64,000 nucleotides of DNA, from NCBI GenBank assembly GCA_023957215.1, contig JAMLHH010000017.1:1-64000 (forward strand). The letters run 5' to 3'. The notes under the pieces were generated by a model, which ran no database searches, had not been told where the DNA came from, and saw only the letters and a program-made list of their open reading frames with translations. Source of the DNA: Chitinophagales bacterium. GTDB taxonomy: Bacteria; Bacteroidota; Bacteroidia; Chitinophagales; JADIYW01. Of this stretch, positions 5,844-40,730 are shown in pieces (the stretch's first letter is position 1; the number at the start of each line of letters is the position of its first letter). The position numbers and the translations under genes were made by a program.

Positions 5844-7028
5844 TTATATCTCTCCAAACTCCCGAATATAGGTATCCAAATCTTTATCACCTCTACCAGA
5901 TAAGTTCACCACCACCACAGAACCTTTAGGTGCATTCAAATCCTTTAATTTAGAAAAAGCATGAGCAGATTCTAACGCAGGAATGATACCTTCCAGCCGA
6001 CTCAACTCCATCACTGCTTCTAAAGCTTCTGCATCCGTCGCTGATAAAAACTGAGCTCGTCCGGTCTCAAATAGCCAAGCATGAATAGGTCCGATACCCG
6101 GATAATCCAAACCGGCAGAAATCGAATAAGGTTCTACTACCTGTCCGTCTTCTGTCTGCATAAACAGAGTCTTACTACCATGCAAAACCCCCGGTTTACC
6201 AGCAACAGTTGTTGCAGCCGTCAGTCCCGAATCAATTCCCTTGCCGGAAGCTTCTACAGCCACTAATTTGACACTTTCATCATCCAAAAAATGATAGAAA
6301 GCTCCGGCAGCATTGCTTCCGCCACCTACGCAAGCCATTACATAATCCGGTGTTTCTCTGCCTTCTTTTTCTTTTAATTGTTTACGGATTTCTTTACTAA
6401 TCACTGACTGAAATCTTGCTACCATATCAGGAAACGGATGTGGTCCCACGACCGAACCGATGATATAATGTGTATCCACCGGATTGGCAATCCAGTCACG
6501 CATCGCCTCATTAGTCGCATCTTTTAATGTTTTACTACCACTTATTGCGGGGTGGACTTCAGTTCCTAACAATCTCATTCTCTTTACATTAGGTGCTTGT
6601 CTATCAATATCGACTTCACCCATGTACACGACACATTTCAAATTCATCAGCGCACACACGGTAGCAGTTGCCACTCCATGCTGTCCGGCACCCGTTTCAG
6701 CAATGATACGTGTCTTACCCAACCTTTTTGCAAGTAATATTTGTCCGATGGTATTATTAATTTTATGTGCACCGGTATGACACAAGTCCTCCCGCTTCAA
6801 ATAAATTTTATAGCCATATTTCTCCGATAATCTCTTCGCAAAATACAGCGGAGTCGGTCTGCCCACATAATCTTGTAAAAGTGATTGCATTTCAGTTTGA
6901 AACTCCTCACTTTCAATAATCTTCAAATATTTTTCTTGTAATTCTTCAATATTCTGATACAACATTTCCGGTATATACGCACCGCCAAATGCACCATAAT
7001 ATCCTCTTTCATCTATCTGATATGTCAT
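5844..7028 (-). CDS. trpB: Tryptophan synthase beta subunit
   Basis: A 394-residue PLP enzyme that joins indole to L-serine to form tryptophan. The PLP lysine is Lys89 in HTGAHKINN; the phosphate loop [10 protein letters not shown] and the LSGRGDKD end motif are intact. The N-terminus ([14 protein letters not shown]) and length are typical of the TrpB1 type, which works with TrpA. The start ATG is well supported by the conserved N-terminus. Confidence 0.97.
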
Positions 7029-33707: not shown

Positions 33708-34738
33708 TTAGAGGATGACTATTTCATCGGCATTGGCCACCAAAATATTCTGTTTGTCTTTTTGAGTTGTGATTTCATCGGCACTCAATTTGGATTTGGC
33801 AACTGCAAAAACCCAGTTGTCAATATCTATGATATCAAAAACTTCTCCTTTGTCAAAAGGACGGATAATTTCTTTTATCCCCACTGCTAATAGACTTTTT
33901 CGTTTGATTAAAGCCTTTTTTGCTCCTTCATCCACTAAGACCCTGCCATACACTTTACTTCCGCTTGCCAACCATTTTTGTCTGGCATTTGCATGTACCT
34001 TTTTTGGTCTGCATACAGTACCGGTTTTACCGTCAATGGCATTTAAGATTCCGTCTTTGGCACGAGCTTCAAAAATAACCGTTTGGATACCGAGACTTGT
34101 GGCGAGACGTGCAAACATCAATTTTGTAATCATTCCCCCCAAACCGGCAGCGGATTTTGTTTTTCGTGCATATCCTAAAATGGCAGGTGTAAAAGTTTTG
34201 ATTTCTTGAATCAATTGATCATTTTCATCCAAAACTCCTGAAACGGAAGTACCTATCAACAAATATTCTGCTCCGAAACCGAGGGCTAAAAGTGTGGCAA
34301 GCTCATCATTATCGGAGAATTTAATTTCCAAATTACTGACGACATCGTTTTCATTGGCAATAGGAATAATGCCATGCTTCCACAATTCGCGATAAGTGTC
34401 TCTCAGTTGTAGAAACTGGTTTCTGTTACTGAAATGTTCTCTCTCGCAAAGACTTTGGGCGATGGGTATCTTGTATTGTTGAAAGGCTTTGGCATATTTA
34501 CCCACCAAAATAGGATTCCCTACCGCAGCGGCGGCTTTTCTTTCTTCTATCTTACCGCTATAATCTTTTATAAAACGCTAGCCTGTCCCGACCGCACCCG
34601 AAGAAACTATTACGATATGAATTTCGTGAAGTACGGAAATCTGTCTTGCAATTCTGCCAACAAAACTTCATCTACTTCACCATCGGATTGCGTAATAGAT
34701 GAGGTCCCAATTTTAAAAACGAGTATAGATTTTTCCAT
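33708..34738 (-). pseudogene. proB: Glutamate 5-kinase, disrupted near the N-terminus
   Basis: The first step of proline synthesis. The C-terminal 266 codons are open: the catalytic core includes NENDVVSNLEIKFSDNDELA and GLGGMITKL, with a PUA domain at the end (GRVLVDEGAKKALIKR). The true N-terminus lies upstream: MEKSILVFKIGTSSITQSDG ... LAEL, then one base shift (about 34650) to RQISVLHEIHIVIVSSGAV and GTG. An in-frame TAG at 34578 follows, although IKDYSGKIEERKAAAAVGNP continues after it. One -1 deletion plus a TAG (or a compensated indel giving xAFIKDY) explains everything. proA is not adjacent. Confidence 0.85.
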
Positions 34739-34834
34739 CTGTTGCGAAATTATAAATAATAAAGATTGTTTGGTAGTGGAAAGGTCTTAATGATAGGAAA
34801 CTATGGGAAAGTATTTATTATTAAAGTGAGAACT

Positions 34835-37492
34835 TTACCTTCTTAAATTTATCGATAACTCTTTTACTGATGAAACTCGTTTGTAAACAACATCTTTCAA
34901 TTCTTTAAAATGCTCTTTACCACACTTGATTTTTTGTTTTTCACTTTTCAATAATTCTTGACCTTCACCTTTTGTTTCTGCTACAAAATAAATTTTCTTT
35001 TGATCTTTGAAAACCACAGCCCAATCCGGATTGTAATTACCAATCGGTGTTGGAATCTTAAACCAATTGGGTAGCTTGAAATAGAATTCTATATTTTCAC
35101 TGCTTTCACAATCTTGTGCAAATTGATTTTCTACTCCGCTATCCAAAGGAATATAGTTTTCATAAATGGTTTTGTCGGCATTTTTCACTGAGTAGGTGAA
35201 CTTATCCATGTAAATTTCAAAATCAGAATCATCAAACAAAGTCATTTCATAAAGTTTTCCGCCAATCTTTTCATATTTGATACCATCAATCATTAAATCA
35301 TACAAGACACTCTTAATGGCATTGGTAGTGTTGTCCATGAACATTTGCGGATTGATAAGCACCTCACTGATTTTTCCGGACTTTTTCAGGATTTGCAGAA
35401 TGGTATCCCGGGTTAGCTCAGTTTTGTTTTGAATATAGGCAAGTATGTCGGGAATTTCCATCTGCAATCCATAATCATCTACCACTCTGTCACTCACCAA
35501 TTGACCCGAAACACCTTCTTCCGTAATCAATACTTTTTGTTTTGTGCTTCTAACATTAGGCTTTATTGTTTCAGGCATTTCTTTGATCGCTTTTCCTGCT
35601 AAAGTAATTAAATCCGAAGTGGTATAGGCTACACTGTATTTCGTTTTGTTTCTGATTTTTCCCCAAATCTGTAAAAACTTAGGGTCGGCTTCAAATCCTT
35701 TTCTATAGTTGACTTTCTTGCGCTCAGCTTTGTTTTTTATACGGTTGTCAAACTGTACTCCGCAATCTTCTTCTATTTCTTTCTGCAAAGCCTTTGCAAA
35801 GTCTTCATAGCGTTCATTTGCAATGACGGTTAATTTATTAATATTGCGGTCGTGGATTCGTTCTCCGTTTTGATTTACACACAAACGCAAACCTCTGCCT
35901 ATTTCTTGCCGTTTTTTGATTTCGGATTTGGTTTCATTCAGAGTGCAGATTTGAAATACATTGGGATTGTCCCATCCTTCGCGCAGTGCGGAGTGGCTGA
36001 AAATAAATCGCAGAGGCGTTTCGATACTCAACAATTTTTCTTTGTCTTGCATGATGAGTTTATAAGTATCATCATCTGCTTGTGTTTCTCCACCCGTATC
36101 CTTTAATCTGCCCTTGTTGTCTTGAGAAAAATAACCGTTGTGAATCTCATTTACAGAATAGGGTATTAAACCTGAAAATGCAGGTTTGCCGCTTTCCTCA
36201 ATATAAATTTCTTCAAACCATTGGGAGAATTTCCCTTTGATGGCATTTCCATCTGCATCGTAATCACGATAGTTTTTTACTTTATCAATAAAAAACAAGG
36301 TCAACACTTTGATGCCTTTCGGTTTATAAAACTTCTCCTTTTTCAGATGCTCCTCTACTGTCTTTTGAATCATATAGCGAAGCACCTCATCGTTCAAACC
36401 ACCCTGTGTTTCGCCCACCATCAGTATTTGACCGTTGGATAGGGAAACTACCTGATTGCTCAAGTCAATTTCCGTTACTTTCAAGTCCTGGTAAATCTCC
36501 CGCTCGCCCGAAAGTTTGTATAAATCGTATTTATTCCTGTCAACCGTGACCGATTTTCTCACGACACCTTTGGGCGTGTTTACATCAATTTTCAGCTTGG
36601 CAACAATTTTATTTTTCCCGCTTGGCTGAATTTTCTCTATCTGAACAAAAGCATCATTCATAGCGTTTTCGCTTACCACAGAATCCACTTCAATTTGCTT
36701 GACCAATCCCAAATCGTAAGCCTTAACGGGATTGAGTGAATACAGGAGGTTGTACAGGTTGGTATGTGTTGCCGAATAACGAAGCGTACAAAGTGGATTC
36801 AGATTTTCAATAGCTTTTTTACGGTTTTTGGTTTCCATGTTTTGCGGTTCGTCCACAATCACAATGGGCTGAGTGCTTTGAATAAACTCAACGGGCTTTT
36901 TGCCTGTCAGCTTATCATTGGGCTTATTGATGATGTTTTCATCTTTGGCAAAAGCATCAATATTGATGACCAAAATCTGAATGGAATTGGCGGAAGCAAA
37001 GCTCCTGAGATGCGAGACTTTTTTACTGTCATACACATCAAAGTTGATTGCTGCTTTGTCATATAAGGATTGAAAATGCTCGTGCGTAATTTTCAGGTTC
37101 TTTAAAACTCCTTCACGAATGGCAATAGACGGAACAACAATCACAAATTTTTTGAAGCCATAAAGTTTATTGAGTTCGTAAATGGTTCGTAGATACACGT
37201 AGGTTTTTCCCGTGCCGGTTTCCATTTCTACAGAAAAATTCATTCCGTGTAGATTATCTAAAGCAGTATCTTTTATTCCATGGCGTTGCTGAATGGATTT
37301 TACATTTTCAAGAATTTGTTCTTCCGACAAAGTCAGTTTATTCCCAAATCCATTTTCTGAATACAAAGTTCCAACAGAAGTATGTGAAAACTCAAAATCG
37401 CCACCACTCAAAGGTTGCCCCTCAAAGATGTCGGTAATGGCTTTGATGGCTTCTAATTGATAGGCTTGATTGCTGTCGAAGTGAAGGATCAT
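34835..37492 (-). CDS. res: Type III restriction endonuclease subunit Res
   Basis: An 885-residue ATP-dependent restriction subunit. Walker A is EMETGTGKTYVYL (about 90-101), and the helicase box II is the type III form IVDEPQNME (about 212-220). The second helicase domain has FIFSHSALREGWDNPNVFQI and QEIGRGLRLCVN. The nuclease end has the PD-(D/E)xK pattern: NPDWAVVF, then FVAETKGEG. It should form a complex with Mod and cut after two head-to-head unmethylated sites. It is last in the unit mod - AlbA_2 protein - res, with a 47-base gap to the middle gene. Confidence 0.93.
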   Translation of the reverse strand: MILHFDSNQAYQLEAIKAITDIFEGQPLSGGDFEFSHTSVGTLYSENGFGNKLTLSEEQILENVKSIQQRHGIKDTALDNLHGMNFSVEMETGTGKTYVYLRTIYELNKLYGFKKFVIVVPSIAIREGVLKNLKITHEHFQSLYDKAAINFDVYDSKKVSHLRSFASANSIQILVINIDAFAKDENIINKPNDKLTGKKPVEFIQSTQPIVIVDEPQNMETKNRKKAIENLNPLCTLRYSATHTNLYNLLYSLNPVKAYDLGLVKQIEVDSVVSENAMNDAFVQIEKIQPSGKNKIVAKLKIDVNTPKGVVRKSVTVDRNKYDLYKLSGEREIYQDLKVTEIDLSNQVVSLSNGQILMVGETQGGLNDEVLRYMIQKTVEEHLKKEKFYKPKGIKVLTLFFIDKVKNYRDYDADGNAIKGKFSQWFEEIYIEESGKPAFSGLIPYSVNEIHNGYFSQDNKGRLKDTGGETQADDDTYKLIMQDKEKLLSIETPLRFIFSHSALREGWDNPNVFQICTLNETKSEIKKRQEIGRGLRLCVNQNGERIHDRNINKLTVIANERYEDFAKALQKEIEEDCGVQFDNRIKNKAERKKVNYRKGFEADPKFLQIWGKIRNKTKYSVAYTTSDLITLAGKAIKEMPETIKPNVRSTKQKVLITEEGVSGQLVSDRVVDDYGLQMEIPDILAYIQNKTELTRDTILQILKKSGKISEVLINPQMFMDNTTNAIKSVLYDLMIDGIKYEKIGGKLYEMTLFDDSDFEIYMDKFTYSVKNADKTIYENYIPLDSGVENQFAQDCESSENIEFYFKLPNWFKIPTPIGNYNPDWAVVFKDQKKIYFVAETKGEGQELLKSEKQKIKCGKEHFKELKDVVYKRVSSVKELSINLRR

Positions 37493-37539
37493 GTGTTCAT
37501 TTTATTGTTTTAAAGGTCACATGGAATGCGTACTGCATT

Positions 37540-38703
37540 TCATTTAAGCACGGGTCTTTTGATTGTAACAACAACCCTTTCGTTTTCAATTTCATTGTTT
37601 ATGTCAAAGTTAGGATAAATGTCCAACGAACGCAGGATGCCGCTTCCTGCTCCTCTGTATTCCATGAGGAAAGGTGCAAATGATGCGATGATATTATTCC
37701 GTGTTCTCCTGATTCCTTTCTTGACTTGTGCTTCCGTTAAATTATTCGGCAATCTTCCGGGGCTGATTATTTCAATTCTGTTTTCAAATACATACAGTTT
37801 GATGGAATCATTCATAAAATAATCCCGGTGAATCAGCGCATTGATAAGAAGTTCCGTTATAACTATTTCGGGCACTTCGGAAACGCCAAGACTATTGAAT
37901 GATTTTCCGGGTTGCTGAATTTTGTGGAGTTTGGAGAGAACAAAATCAAATCCTTTGCGGTAAAGCTCATCCAGTGTTCCATAAATGTTTTCACTGCTTC
38001 TGTATTTTGTATCTGTAATTTCATTTCCCCAAAACCAAATGGCAGTGATAAAAAACTGGGGTGTCAGCCCTTGAAGATTTTTGCCGAACAGCAATGCTCC
38101 CGCAATATTCAATTTTCCCTCCGCACCAAGCCTTAAATTAGTCAGGTGTTTTTCCAATTGATTATTGTCTGGTGTTTCCTTGTATTGTGCTTCATAAAAC
38201 CTCCTGAACTTATCCGCATCTAAATCTGCCATGCTGCTATGCCCGATAACTTTTTCTTCCGCATACATGTATCCGCTGCTTTGAAGCAATCTTGAAATTT
38301 CTTCATTGCTTGTTACTTTTCTCTTGTTTGCTCCGTTCTTCAGATAAATTATTCCGTCTTTGTCTTTGTAAGGTTTGGCTATGCCTTCGGGAACGGTTAC
38401 CACCAGCACTAATTTCCCCTTTACACCAACCGTTTCTGTATTGATGAATATTGGTTCTTTCACATACTGGTCGGCAGCATTTACCAAAAGGTTTGTGAGC
38501 CGCCTAAGGTCATCAGCAGTTAATCCTGTTATGTCCCAGGTTTTATCATCAACACCAATCAGGATTTTGCTGCCTTTTGTATTGGCAAATGCAACCATTT
38601 CCTGAGCAATGCTCTGCTCATTATGCACATTGGCTTTAAACTGGACAGAGCTTGTTTCGCCCTTGGCTATTATGTCAAGAATTTCTTCTGCATTCATACT
38701 CAT
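37540..38703 (-). CDS. AlbA_2 (Schlafen-like) / HATPase-type ATP-binding protein inside the restriction operon
   Basis: A 387-residue protein of the COG2865 type. Residues about 12-130 form the AlbA_2/Schlafen-like domain: SSVQFKANVHNEQSIAQEMV, FANTKGSKILIGVDD, and GIIYLKNGANKRKVTSNEEI. The C-terminal part has a GHKL-type ATP fold: EIVITELLINALIHRDY (N-box), then NRIEIISPGRLPNN and GAGSGI. Family members are called transcriptional regulators or nucleic-acid-binding ATPases; the role is untested. Its ATG overlaps the mod stop by four bases (ATGA), so it is made with the methyltransferase and is an integral part of the unit. Confidence 0.85.
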   Translation of the reverse strand: MSMNAEEILDIIAKGETSSVQFKANVHNEQSIAQEMVAFANTKGSKILIGVDDKTWDITGLTADDLRRLTNLLVNAADQYVKEPIFINTETVGVKGKLVLVVTVPEGIAKPYKDKDGIIYLKNGANKRKVTSNEEISRLLQSSGYMYAEEKVIGHSSMADLDADKFRRFYEAQYKETPDNNQLEKHLTNLRLGAEGKLNIAGALLFGKNLQGLTPQFFITAIWFWGNEITDTKYRSSENIYGTLDELYRKGFDFVLSKLHKIQQPGKSFNSLGVSEVPEIVITELLINALIHRDYFMNDSIKLYVFENRIEIISPGRLPNNLTEAQVKKGIRRTRNNIIASFAPFLMEYRGAGSGILRSLDIYPNFDINNEIENERVVVTIKRPVLK

Positions 38704-40730
38704 ATCGTTTTAAACTCCACCCCGGCATCTCTCATTTGCAAGACCGTGTTGGTTTTGAGTTGGTCGTTGTCTTTGAAAAGAATATCTAAGGTGATTACTT
38801 TCTTAATGCTCGGTTGGGATTGGATAAGCGATAAAGCCTTGTCCATTGCTTGCTGCATGTTTTTTGTTTCAATGAGCAGGATTAATTCGTCATTGACAAT
38901 TTTTAATTCTCCGTTTACTGTGATTTTATCGGTCAATGAATAGCCTGCTTTCAGCATGAGTTCATAGAGCATATTCTCCTGCTCGCTACCTTCCCGGATG
39001 GGATTGGTAAATATTTCTAACTGTTGCTCTAAATTTTCTTCATCTATCTCGCTGCCACGCCAGATTTTGAAATTGGAAGGAGCGAGTTTGAACACCTTGA
39101 AACCATTGTCTAAACTGTGATTTATTGGATTTTTATGATTGCTTTGATTTATAGTGTGTCGGTATTTAGTTTCAGGCTCAAACAAGAGTTGAGGCTCCAA
39201 TTCTTTTTCTTTTCCTTTAATCATGGTAATCTCTGAATCAGAAGAATCATGGTTCAGACGTTTAATTACCCTCCTTATCCTCTCCTTACTGATGTCTGCA
39301 ATGGTTTTATACCCTGCTTTATATGCTTCACTGTTTTCATTACACAATTCGGGTAACTGTACTAAAATAAATTTTCGATTGCCTCCGTCTTTTTGATTAA
39401 GTTCTAAAACGGCCTGGGCAGTGGTGCCGGAGCCTCCGAAGAAATCGAGGATTATATCGAATTTATTGTTAATGGTCTTTAAGAAATATTGAATTAAGCC
39501 AATTGGCTTAGGATTTGAGAAATAGGTTTTTCCATTAAATAAATTTGCGAAATCTGCATTTCCTTGCTGATTTATAGGCTCAGTTATTAAATTTGAATAT
39601 GCACGACCTGACTTATGTCGTATATTCCCTTCATTATCAACATTTTGATAAACCTTGTATTTGATTGTATAATTTGAATCTTCACTTTTATCAGATTTGA
39701 CAAATTCTAAAAACTTATTGTCAATACCCCACTTCACTTTGTTTTGTCCCCATTTCCATATCCATCCATCATTCACAAATGTTGAACGTCCATTTGGAAA
39801 AATTACACCACCATCCGGGGCATGTATTCCAAAATTCATAGAATCTGAATATTGCAATCCACCACGGTCAAGTGTGTCAAAATAATATTTTCCACGAATA
39901 TCAACAAATTCATCAGATAACTTAAAACGTTCTTGGTTTATGGAATTTTTATCACGTTCCCAAATATCATTTTCAATAGTTGCAGTATAATTCTTTGCAA
40001 ACAACAAAATAGTTTCAGTAATAATTGCAATATCTTTTGCGTCATTTGCTCCTGTCTTTTTTCGCCAATCAAATGATGCCACAAAATTCTCCTCTCCAAA
40101 AATTTCATTCATAATCATTCTCAGATTATGCACTTCATTGTCGTCAATATGCACGAAGATGACACCATCCTCACGCAATAGGTTTTTAGCCAAAAATAAA
40201 CGGGGATACATCATGCTTAGCCAGTTGCTGTGGTAATGTCCGCTGTCTTTGCTGTTCTTGCGAAACAAACCTTCTTTCAGCAAATAGCCTTCTTCGTCTT
40301 TATCACCTATTCGTTTTTCGTAATCGGCTTTGTTTTCCTTAAAGCTATCGGGATAAATAAAACTGTCGTTGCCCGTGTTGTAAGGCGGGTCTATGATGAT
40401 ACACTTAATTTTTCCGTAATAGCTTTTCTGCAAGACTTTCAGCACTTCAAGGTTTTCACCTTCAATAAAAACATTTTCGGTCGTGTCAAAATTTACTGAT
40501 TCTTCCGGCTGTGGTTTTAGAGTAGCAGTGGTGGGAATTTGCAAGGTTTTAAACGCATCACTTTTCCCTGCCCAGTTCAACACATAGCGTTCGTTATCGA
40601 AATTTATATCTTCGGTAAAAGCAGCTTTGAACTTTTCCATATCAATTTTTTCTTCTGAAAAAATTTCAGGAAAATCAGCTTTCAATTTTTCTAATCGGTC
40701 GTTTATTATGTTCAGGGATTCTCCGTTCAT
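38700..40730 (-). CDS. mod: Type III DNA methyltransferase subunit Mod
   Basis: A 676-residue beta-class N6-adenine methyltransferase. Motif IV is IIIDPPYNTGNDSF (about 111-124), and motif I comes later, ILDFFGGSGTTAQAVLEL, the order expected of type III Mod. The target-recognition region lies between (about 230-400). It recognises the site both for protection and for Res. I saw no long homopolymer or tandem repeat of the kind used for phase variation. It is the first gene of the three-gene unit; an AT-rich stretch lies upstream. Confidence 0.95.
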   Translation of the reverse strand: MNGESLNIINDRLEKLKADFPEIFSEEKIDMEKFKAAFTEDINFDNERYVLNWAGKSDAFKTLQIPTTATLKPQPEESVNFDTTENVFIEGENLEVLKVLQKSYYGKIKCIIIDPPYNTGNDSFIYPDSFKENKADYEKRIGDKDEEGYLLKEGLFRKNSKDSGHYHSNWLSMMYPRLFLAKNLLREDGVIFVHIDDNEVHNLRMIMNEIFGEENFVASFDWRKKTGANDAKDIAIITETILLFAKNYTATIENDIWERDKNSINQERFKLSDEFVDIRGKYYFDTLDRGGLQYSDSMNFGIHAPDGGVIFPNGRSTFVNDGWIWKWGQNKVKWGIDNKFLEFVKSDKSEDSNYTIKYKVYQNVDNEGNIRHKSGRAYSNLITEPINQQGNADFANLFNGKTYFSNPKPIGLIQYFLKTINNKFDIILDFFGGSGTTAQAVLELNQKDGGNRKFILVQLPELCNENSEAYKAGYKTIADISKERIRRVIKRLNHDSSDSEITMIKGKEKELEPQLLFEPETKYRHTINQSNHKNPINHSLDNGFKVFKLAPSNFKIWRGSEIDEENLEQQLEIFTNPIREGSEQENMLYELMLKAGYSLTDKITVNGELKIVNDELILLIETKNMQQAMDKALSLIQSQPSIKKVITLDILFKDNDQLKTNTVLQMRDAGVEFKTI

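Follow-up and report, generated by a model that had tools for sequence, protein, structure and literature searches.

Results

Organization of the locus

The window (the whole 64,000-nucleotide stretch of DNA analysed) contains three intact reading frames on its minus strand, in the order mod (40730-38700), a gene encoding an AlbA_2 plus HATPase_c_4 protein (38703-37540) and res (37492-34835), whose products are 676, 387 and 885 aa long, respectively. We refer to the middle gene as the guest. The features of the operon are:

38700-40730, minus strand: mod, type III DNA methyltransferase of the beta-class N6_N4_Mtase (ORF, domain and PADLOC matches, motifs)
39455-40058, minus strand: variable middle of mod, the target-recognition region (blastn gap between the window and L183, L068 and L185)
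37493-38699, minus strand: mod/res exchange slot (empty in L185, unrelated genes in other relatives)
37540-38703, minus strand: guest gene, 387-aa AlbA_2 (Schlafen-like) plus HATPase_c_4 protein, with Met3 (38697) as the probable conserved start
34835-37492, minus strand: res, type III restriction endonuclease of 885 aa (ORF, domain and PADLOC matches, helicase motifs intact)
34868-35173, minus strand: RE_endonuc PD-(D/E)XK domain of Res (domain match, PDW...AETKG intact in the sequence)

Mod matches the N6_N4_Mtase domain (5e-30), and motif IV (DPPYNTG) and motif I (FFGGSGTT) can be read in its sequence, while Res contains ResIII/DEAD plus RE_endonuc domains (3e-35); the PADLOC type III models matched are MTase_III for Mod and REase_III for Res. 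A beta-class Mod and a helicase/endonuclease Res with intact motifs are therefore encoded in one operon, as in a type III restriction-modification (RM) system, and the guest lies between these core genes on the same strand and with operon-like spacing. ORFs and domains thus bear out an earlier note on this DNA, which had described a type III island whose mod and res are split by an AlbA_2/GHKL protein; the protein is of defence type, and the gap of 47 nt between the middle gene and res was verified. The same note had the start of the middle gene overlapping the mod stop (ATGA), which is correct if the first ATG is used but not if translation begins at Met3 (38697), 2 nt after the mod stop. A Met occupies the equivalent position in 12/12 homologues of the family alignment, and the DNA similarity between the window and L183 starts at the Met3 codon of the guest. 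Judging from the sequence, the spacing is operon-like whichever start codon applies.

The target-recognition region of mod shows no DNA-level alignment among the relatives. Repeats in the region are short and unremarkable, and predicted promoters and terminators were no more numerous than expected by chance. Adjoining the island on the minus strand lies a broken proB (glutamate 5-kinase, 33708-34760) with its N-terminal part in another frame and a stop inside the GTG-RFIKDYSG stretch; an intact proB of 342 aa is present in two genus relatives, and the broken copy is either a pseudogene or an assembly error. We found no vacant chromosomal site for the whole island in these two relatives, because the proB and metallo-hydrolase flanks lie on different contigs in both of them.

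Contents of the mod/res junction

Type III systems are usually shown as plain mod-res pairs. We searched Res against 395 genomes of the phylum, of which 65 matched at 1e-40, retrieved the matched regions and tabulated the content between mod and res. In 35 of the Bacteroidota loci mod lay upstream of res within a single contig; 30 of these had at least one intervening gene and five had none, many of the long-Res loci coming from one or two genera and hence not being independent. The short-Res set corresponds to the Res subfamily of the window, with plasmid, viral-collection and class-level loci added; its slot was occupied in 15/18 loci, empty in two (L185 and L110) and held only a 98-aa ORF in one (L186), these counts being of loci and not of independent events. 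Mod-gene-res arrangements in other genomes, which the earlier note had mentioned, do therefore exist.

The cargo of the related loci comprises at least 11 unrelated types, as judged from mechanically called ORFs in genomes that are mostly drafts and from unevenly sampled lineages. In the short-Res loci it consists, besides the AlbA_2 protein of the window, of a TrlF plus AlbA_2 pair (L056 and L183), a different AlbA_2 protein plus a ParA-like ATPase (L068), a DUF488 pair (L069), GmrSD (L071 and L109), AAA_21 plus DUF4276 (L072), an AAA pair (L074), a Bro-N protein (L075), a Y1-transposase-like protein (L076), a DUF1016/PDDEXK nuclease (L108 and L177) and unknown proteins (L178 and L184). The long-Res loci hold RhuM plus Fic, Fic, DUF1016, Abi_2 with a PD-Lambda-4-like protein, a PDC-M64-like set and others. 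Most of the cargo gives PADLOC hits in families of known or candidate defences (HEC-06, HEC-01A, PDC-M19A/B, PDC-S13, PDC-S02, PDC-M59A/B, PDC-M64, PD-Lambda-4 and SoFic), with the reservation that the PDC/HEC labels include candidates, PDC denoting candidate and not proven defences. The PDC and HEC names reportedly come from an embedding study by Payne and colleagues. Not all cargo can be ascribed to defence, since one slot gene is Y1-transposase-like and several belong to no family.

The exchange of slot contents is fast and exact at the gene edges. L072 and L108, whose Res proteins are 91% identical, have no cargo in common (AAA plus DUF4276 versus a DUF1016 nuclease), and neither do L056 and L074 at 87% Res identity (TrlF plus AlbA_2 versus an AAA pair); between L089 and L095, with 96% identical Res, the Fic-type gene differs. 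The Res proteins of the window and L068 are 84% identical while their AlbA_2 proteins are only 32% similar, and one empty-slot locus encodes a Res 72% identical to that of the window. In DNA alignments the similarity reaches the last codons of mod and restarts at the first codon of res; for L056 and L074 the restart points, 5693 and 3934, are the res start codons. In L185, a natural empty slot, mod and res share a 4-nt overlap, and when the window is aligned to it about 1.2 kb of extra sequence falls exactly between the two genes. The host system is thus found both without the guest and with different cargo in its place. The literature searched yielded no paper on genes located between mod and res and no description of the type III mod/res junction as a gene-edge exchange slot.

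The tight spacing of mod, cargo and res is also seen with unrelated cargo. We rejected translational coupling of Mod and the AlbA_2 protein as a functional sign, given these overlaps or near-zero gaps and the conserved start at Met3. As a separate observation, L068, whose Res is the closest relative (84%), has an in-frame TAA near the N-terminus of Res (about 6022-6100, G091) at the site of a Gln codon in the window, so this locus may be restriction-deficient.

Domains and putative active site of the guest

Three features were located in the guest:

38314-38658, minus strand: SLFN_AlbA_2 domain, residues 16-130 (Pfam 7e-22; fold matches)
38641-38658, minus strand: E16-x4-Q21 motif (GETSSVQFK), with Gln at the position that a catalytic Glu occupies in Schlafens (SLFN14 E211)
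37618-37806, minus strand: HATPase_c_4 (GHKL-like) domain, residues 300-362 (8e-12), the N-box lying just upstream at residues 284-292

The structure model of the guest (mean pLDDT 77, pTM 0.52) matched 3lmm over most of its length, this being the best match in both fold and sequence. Foldseek also matched it to SLFN11/13/14, the SAMD9 tRNase domain and 2kyy, as well as to histidine-kinase catalytic cores, so that Pfam and Foldseek both place an AlbA_2/Schlafen fold in the guest. In Schlafens and SAMD9L, two Glu and one Asp make up the catalytic triad (PMC11221667). When the guest was aligned to SLFN14, E16 corresponded to Glu206 and Q21 to Glu211, the residue that is mutated to Ala in deposited structures of SLFN14-E211A; E16 and D53 are thus present in the guest, but the second Glu is Gln21. 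This Gln is found in 23/23 members of the clade, whereas all four outgroup AlbA_2/HATPase_c_4 proteins have Glu. A clade-wide substitution of this kind was not described in the literature searched. The equivalent of SLFN14 Glu211 being Gln across the whole clade, the suggestion of the earlier note that the protein could add an RNA-targeting effector appears weakened.

The same note had called the C-terminal part a GHKL ATPase. The HATPase_c_4 match stands, and the N-box (E-x3-N-A-x2-H) and a G2-like GxGxG are present, but the Asp of the G1 motif (DxGxG) is absent and SPG is found instead, which makes ATPase activity of the guest doubtful. A domain search found no DNA-binding HTH in the guest.

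Relatives and mobility of the guest

The closest relative of the guest (67-69% identity) comes from a Brevinematales (Spirochaetota) genome, where its gene is solitary; a search of that genome, run without a positive control, found neither Res nor TrlF, and a scan of close-relative genomes gave one locus only. Further relatives, at about 45% identity and below, lie beside TrlF-family ATPases, beside hsdR or in other surroundings. Of 24 loci of the guest and its relatives in the phylum sample, the window included, two are in a type III slot, eight beside hsdR (all from one genus), six more beside TrlF and eight elsewhere. In Klebsiella and E. coli IncA/IncC plasmids a TrlF plus AlbA_2 pair lies between hsdR and hsdS, and homologues in phage records are distant only (under 30% identity). 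PADLOC assigned the guest to no close family; partial matches to pAgo/Aga profiles were obtained, as was one to PDC-S50 (8e-07 over residues 4-112).

In the tree, the window protein and the spirochaete protein form a fully supported group that is separate from the TrlF-linked proteins. Compared with L183, Mod is 64% and Res 76% identical, while the guest is only 43% identical and reaches 67% with the spirochaete copy. We therefore rejected vertical co-inheritance of the guest with Mod and Res: these are close to those of L183, yet the guest resembles the lone spirochaete gene more than it does the L183 guest. The guest is the sole AlbA_2 protein in its 2.88-Mb genome. No TrlF was found adjoining it or elsewhere in that genome, and we rejected a TrlF acting on it in trans on the basis of this search, which also had no positive control. 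The same clade occupies the type III slot at three loci (the window, L056 and L183), so a functional affinity of the clade to type III systems is possible.

Discussion

We consider the guest to be probably a transferable defence module housed in a type III operon, one that takes no part in the working of the restriction enzyme. Relatives carry different, mostly anti-virus-type genes or none at the same spot, which marks it as a swappable passenger. The locus is a normal, apparently intact type III RM operon whose mod/res junction takes guest genes, mostly of defence type, and the guest belongs to a mobile AlbA_2/HATPase_c_4 clade, other members of which are solitary, lie next to TrlF-family PHP/ABC ATPases or are part of type I operons. 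Presumably transcribed together with mod and res, it would provide a second, backup anti-phage layer that needs no chemical contact with Mod or Res; its AlbA_2 domain would bind nucleic acid, RNA or DNA, and its GHKL-like domain would be a switch that senses a ligand. With Gln standing at one of the three catalytic positions in every clade member, we favour a sensor/regulator without catalytic activity, or else a nuclease of altered chemistry, over a canonical Schlafen tRNase, bearing in mind that a protein short of one acid may still be a nuclease. From its residues, then, we propose only tentatively that the guest is a nucleic-acid-binding sensor/regulator (or an altered-chemistry nuclease) and not a canonical Schlafen RNase.

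Nesting of defence genes inside RM and BREX loci is an established pattern (PMC12255303, PMC12629846, PMC3710099, PMC12839542, PMC12707154), and since the window locus shares its principle, it is a further instance of what is known as "guilt-by-embedding". DarTG2, or a pair formed by an RNA-binding protein and an AAA-like ATPase, has been described between hsdS and hsdR, the pair in four genomes (PMC12255303), and RhuM/Fic has been found embedded in RM operons (PMC3710099). The pair of TrlF and an RNA-binding gene is present in type I loci and also occupies two of the type III slots; the window differs in that the site is the type III mod/res junction and the guest has no TrlF partner. Compared with EcoP1I/EcoP15I (Mod2Res1), the window has the same kinds of Mod (N6_N4_Mtase) and Res (helicase, PD-(D/E)XK) with mod first and motifs intact, but differs by the gene between them, the junction being an exchange slot in this Res subfamily. 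BREX-linked bacterial Schlafens consist of a Schlafen, a minimal histidine-kinase domain and a wHTH (PMC12839542). The guest resembles them in the order AlbA_2 then GHKL/histidine-kinase-like domain and in lying inside a modification-based defence locus, but its catalytic Glu is replaced by Gln and it has no C-terminal wHTH. The same two-domain architecture is seen in 3lmm (DIP2311 of Corynebacterium diphtheriae, a solved but uncharacterised structure), at about 20% identity to the guest.

A broader proposal, which we regard as unlikely but worth stating, is that the Gln-type Schlafen clade comprises non-nuclease sensors or adaptors that license their host effector in type I, type III and TrlF operons, with the mod/res junction as a dedicated docking slot with gene-edge guest exchange.

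The position of the guest inside the operon and its Schlafen/SAMD9 tRNase fold would also suit an RM guardian, that is, a protein that physically monitors Mod/Res and, once restriction is inhibited by a phage, is freed to block translation as an RNase. Precedents exist in the embedded PrrC, which monitors EcoprrI, and in the Schlafens of BREX loci (PMC12707154, PMC12839542). The slot takes unrelated genes, however, the same clade occurs outside RM loci with its closest copy having no RM partner, and the catalytic Glu is Gln, and on this analysis we judge such a role quite improbable. The dedicated link to Mod that the earlier note had drawn is not supported, as the slot accepts at least 11 unrelated cargo types or stays empty and the closest homologue has neither mod nor res beside it.

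A passive hitchhiker, or a decaying remnant of a TrlF plus AlbA_2 pair after loss of the TrlF ATPase, would account for the many clade relatives paired with TrlF, for the pair held by L183 in the equivalent slot and for the failure of our search, again without positive control, to find TrlF in the window genome. The guest nevertheless retains an intact reading frame and every conserved residue, and its nearest relative (67%), in another phylum, is also TrlF-free and intact, which indicates a functional TrlF-independent subclade and makes the remnant explanation distinctly doubtful.

Least probable is an expression timer, in which the guest would regulate or delay Res until methylation is complete: the mod-X-res order, the close spacing and the frequent annotation of AlbA_2/HATPase_c_4 proteins as transcriptional regulators or RecG-like are in its favour, but in relatives mod-res occurs without the guest, with unrelated genes or with an empty slot (4-nt overlap), the closest homologue has no mod or res, and the guest has no DNA-binding HTH. 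Control of Res, as put forward in the earlier note, is not supported by these loci. That note had named as refuting it the absence of the gene from close relatives together with a deletion lacking any phenotype, and the first half of this, absence from relatives with homologous mod-res, was indeed observed.

The significance of these results is twofold. The junction of this Res family holds a replaceable gene in 15/18 short-form loci and can therefore be used as a built-in trap for new defence genes, and the Gln-for-Glu clade offers a sharp, cheap test case of bacterial Schlafen relatives as nucleases versus sensors.

Other related loci

Most plasmid loci from Pseudomonadota and Bacillota have an empty slot, so slot occupancy is lineage-dependent. 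In plasmid loci from Pseudomonadota, Bacillota and an archaeon (L112, L113, L116, L118 and L148-L153), mod-res is preceded by a helicase/SNF2 gene and in most of them a DUF4391 gene is present too, again with a mostly empty slot; this suggests that helicase/SNF2, DUF4391 and mod-res form a larger conserved system. In L079 (2641-7656) the mod-res slot holds a PD-Lambda-4-like protein of 1276 aa plus an Abi_2 protein. Finally, on the viral-collection contig L178 (8760-13610), a gene for a 1616-aa protein directly follows res with overlapping start and stop codons, and the N-terminal sequence of this protein resembles an Hsp90-type GHKL ATPase.
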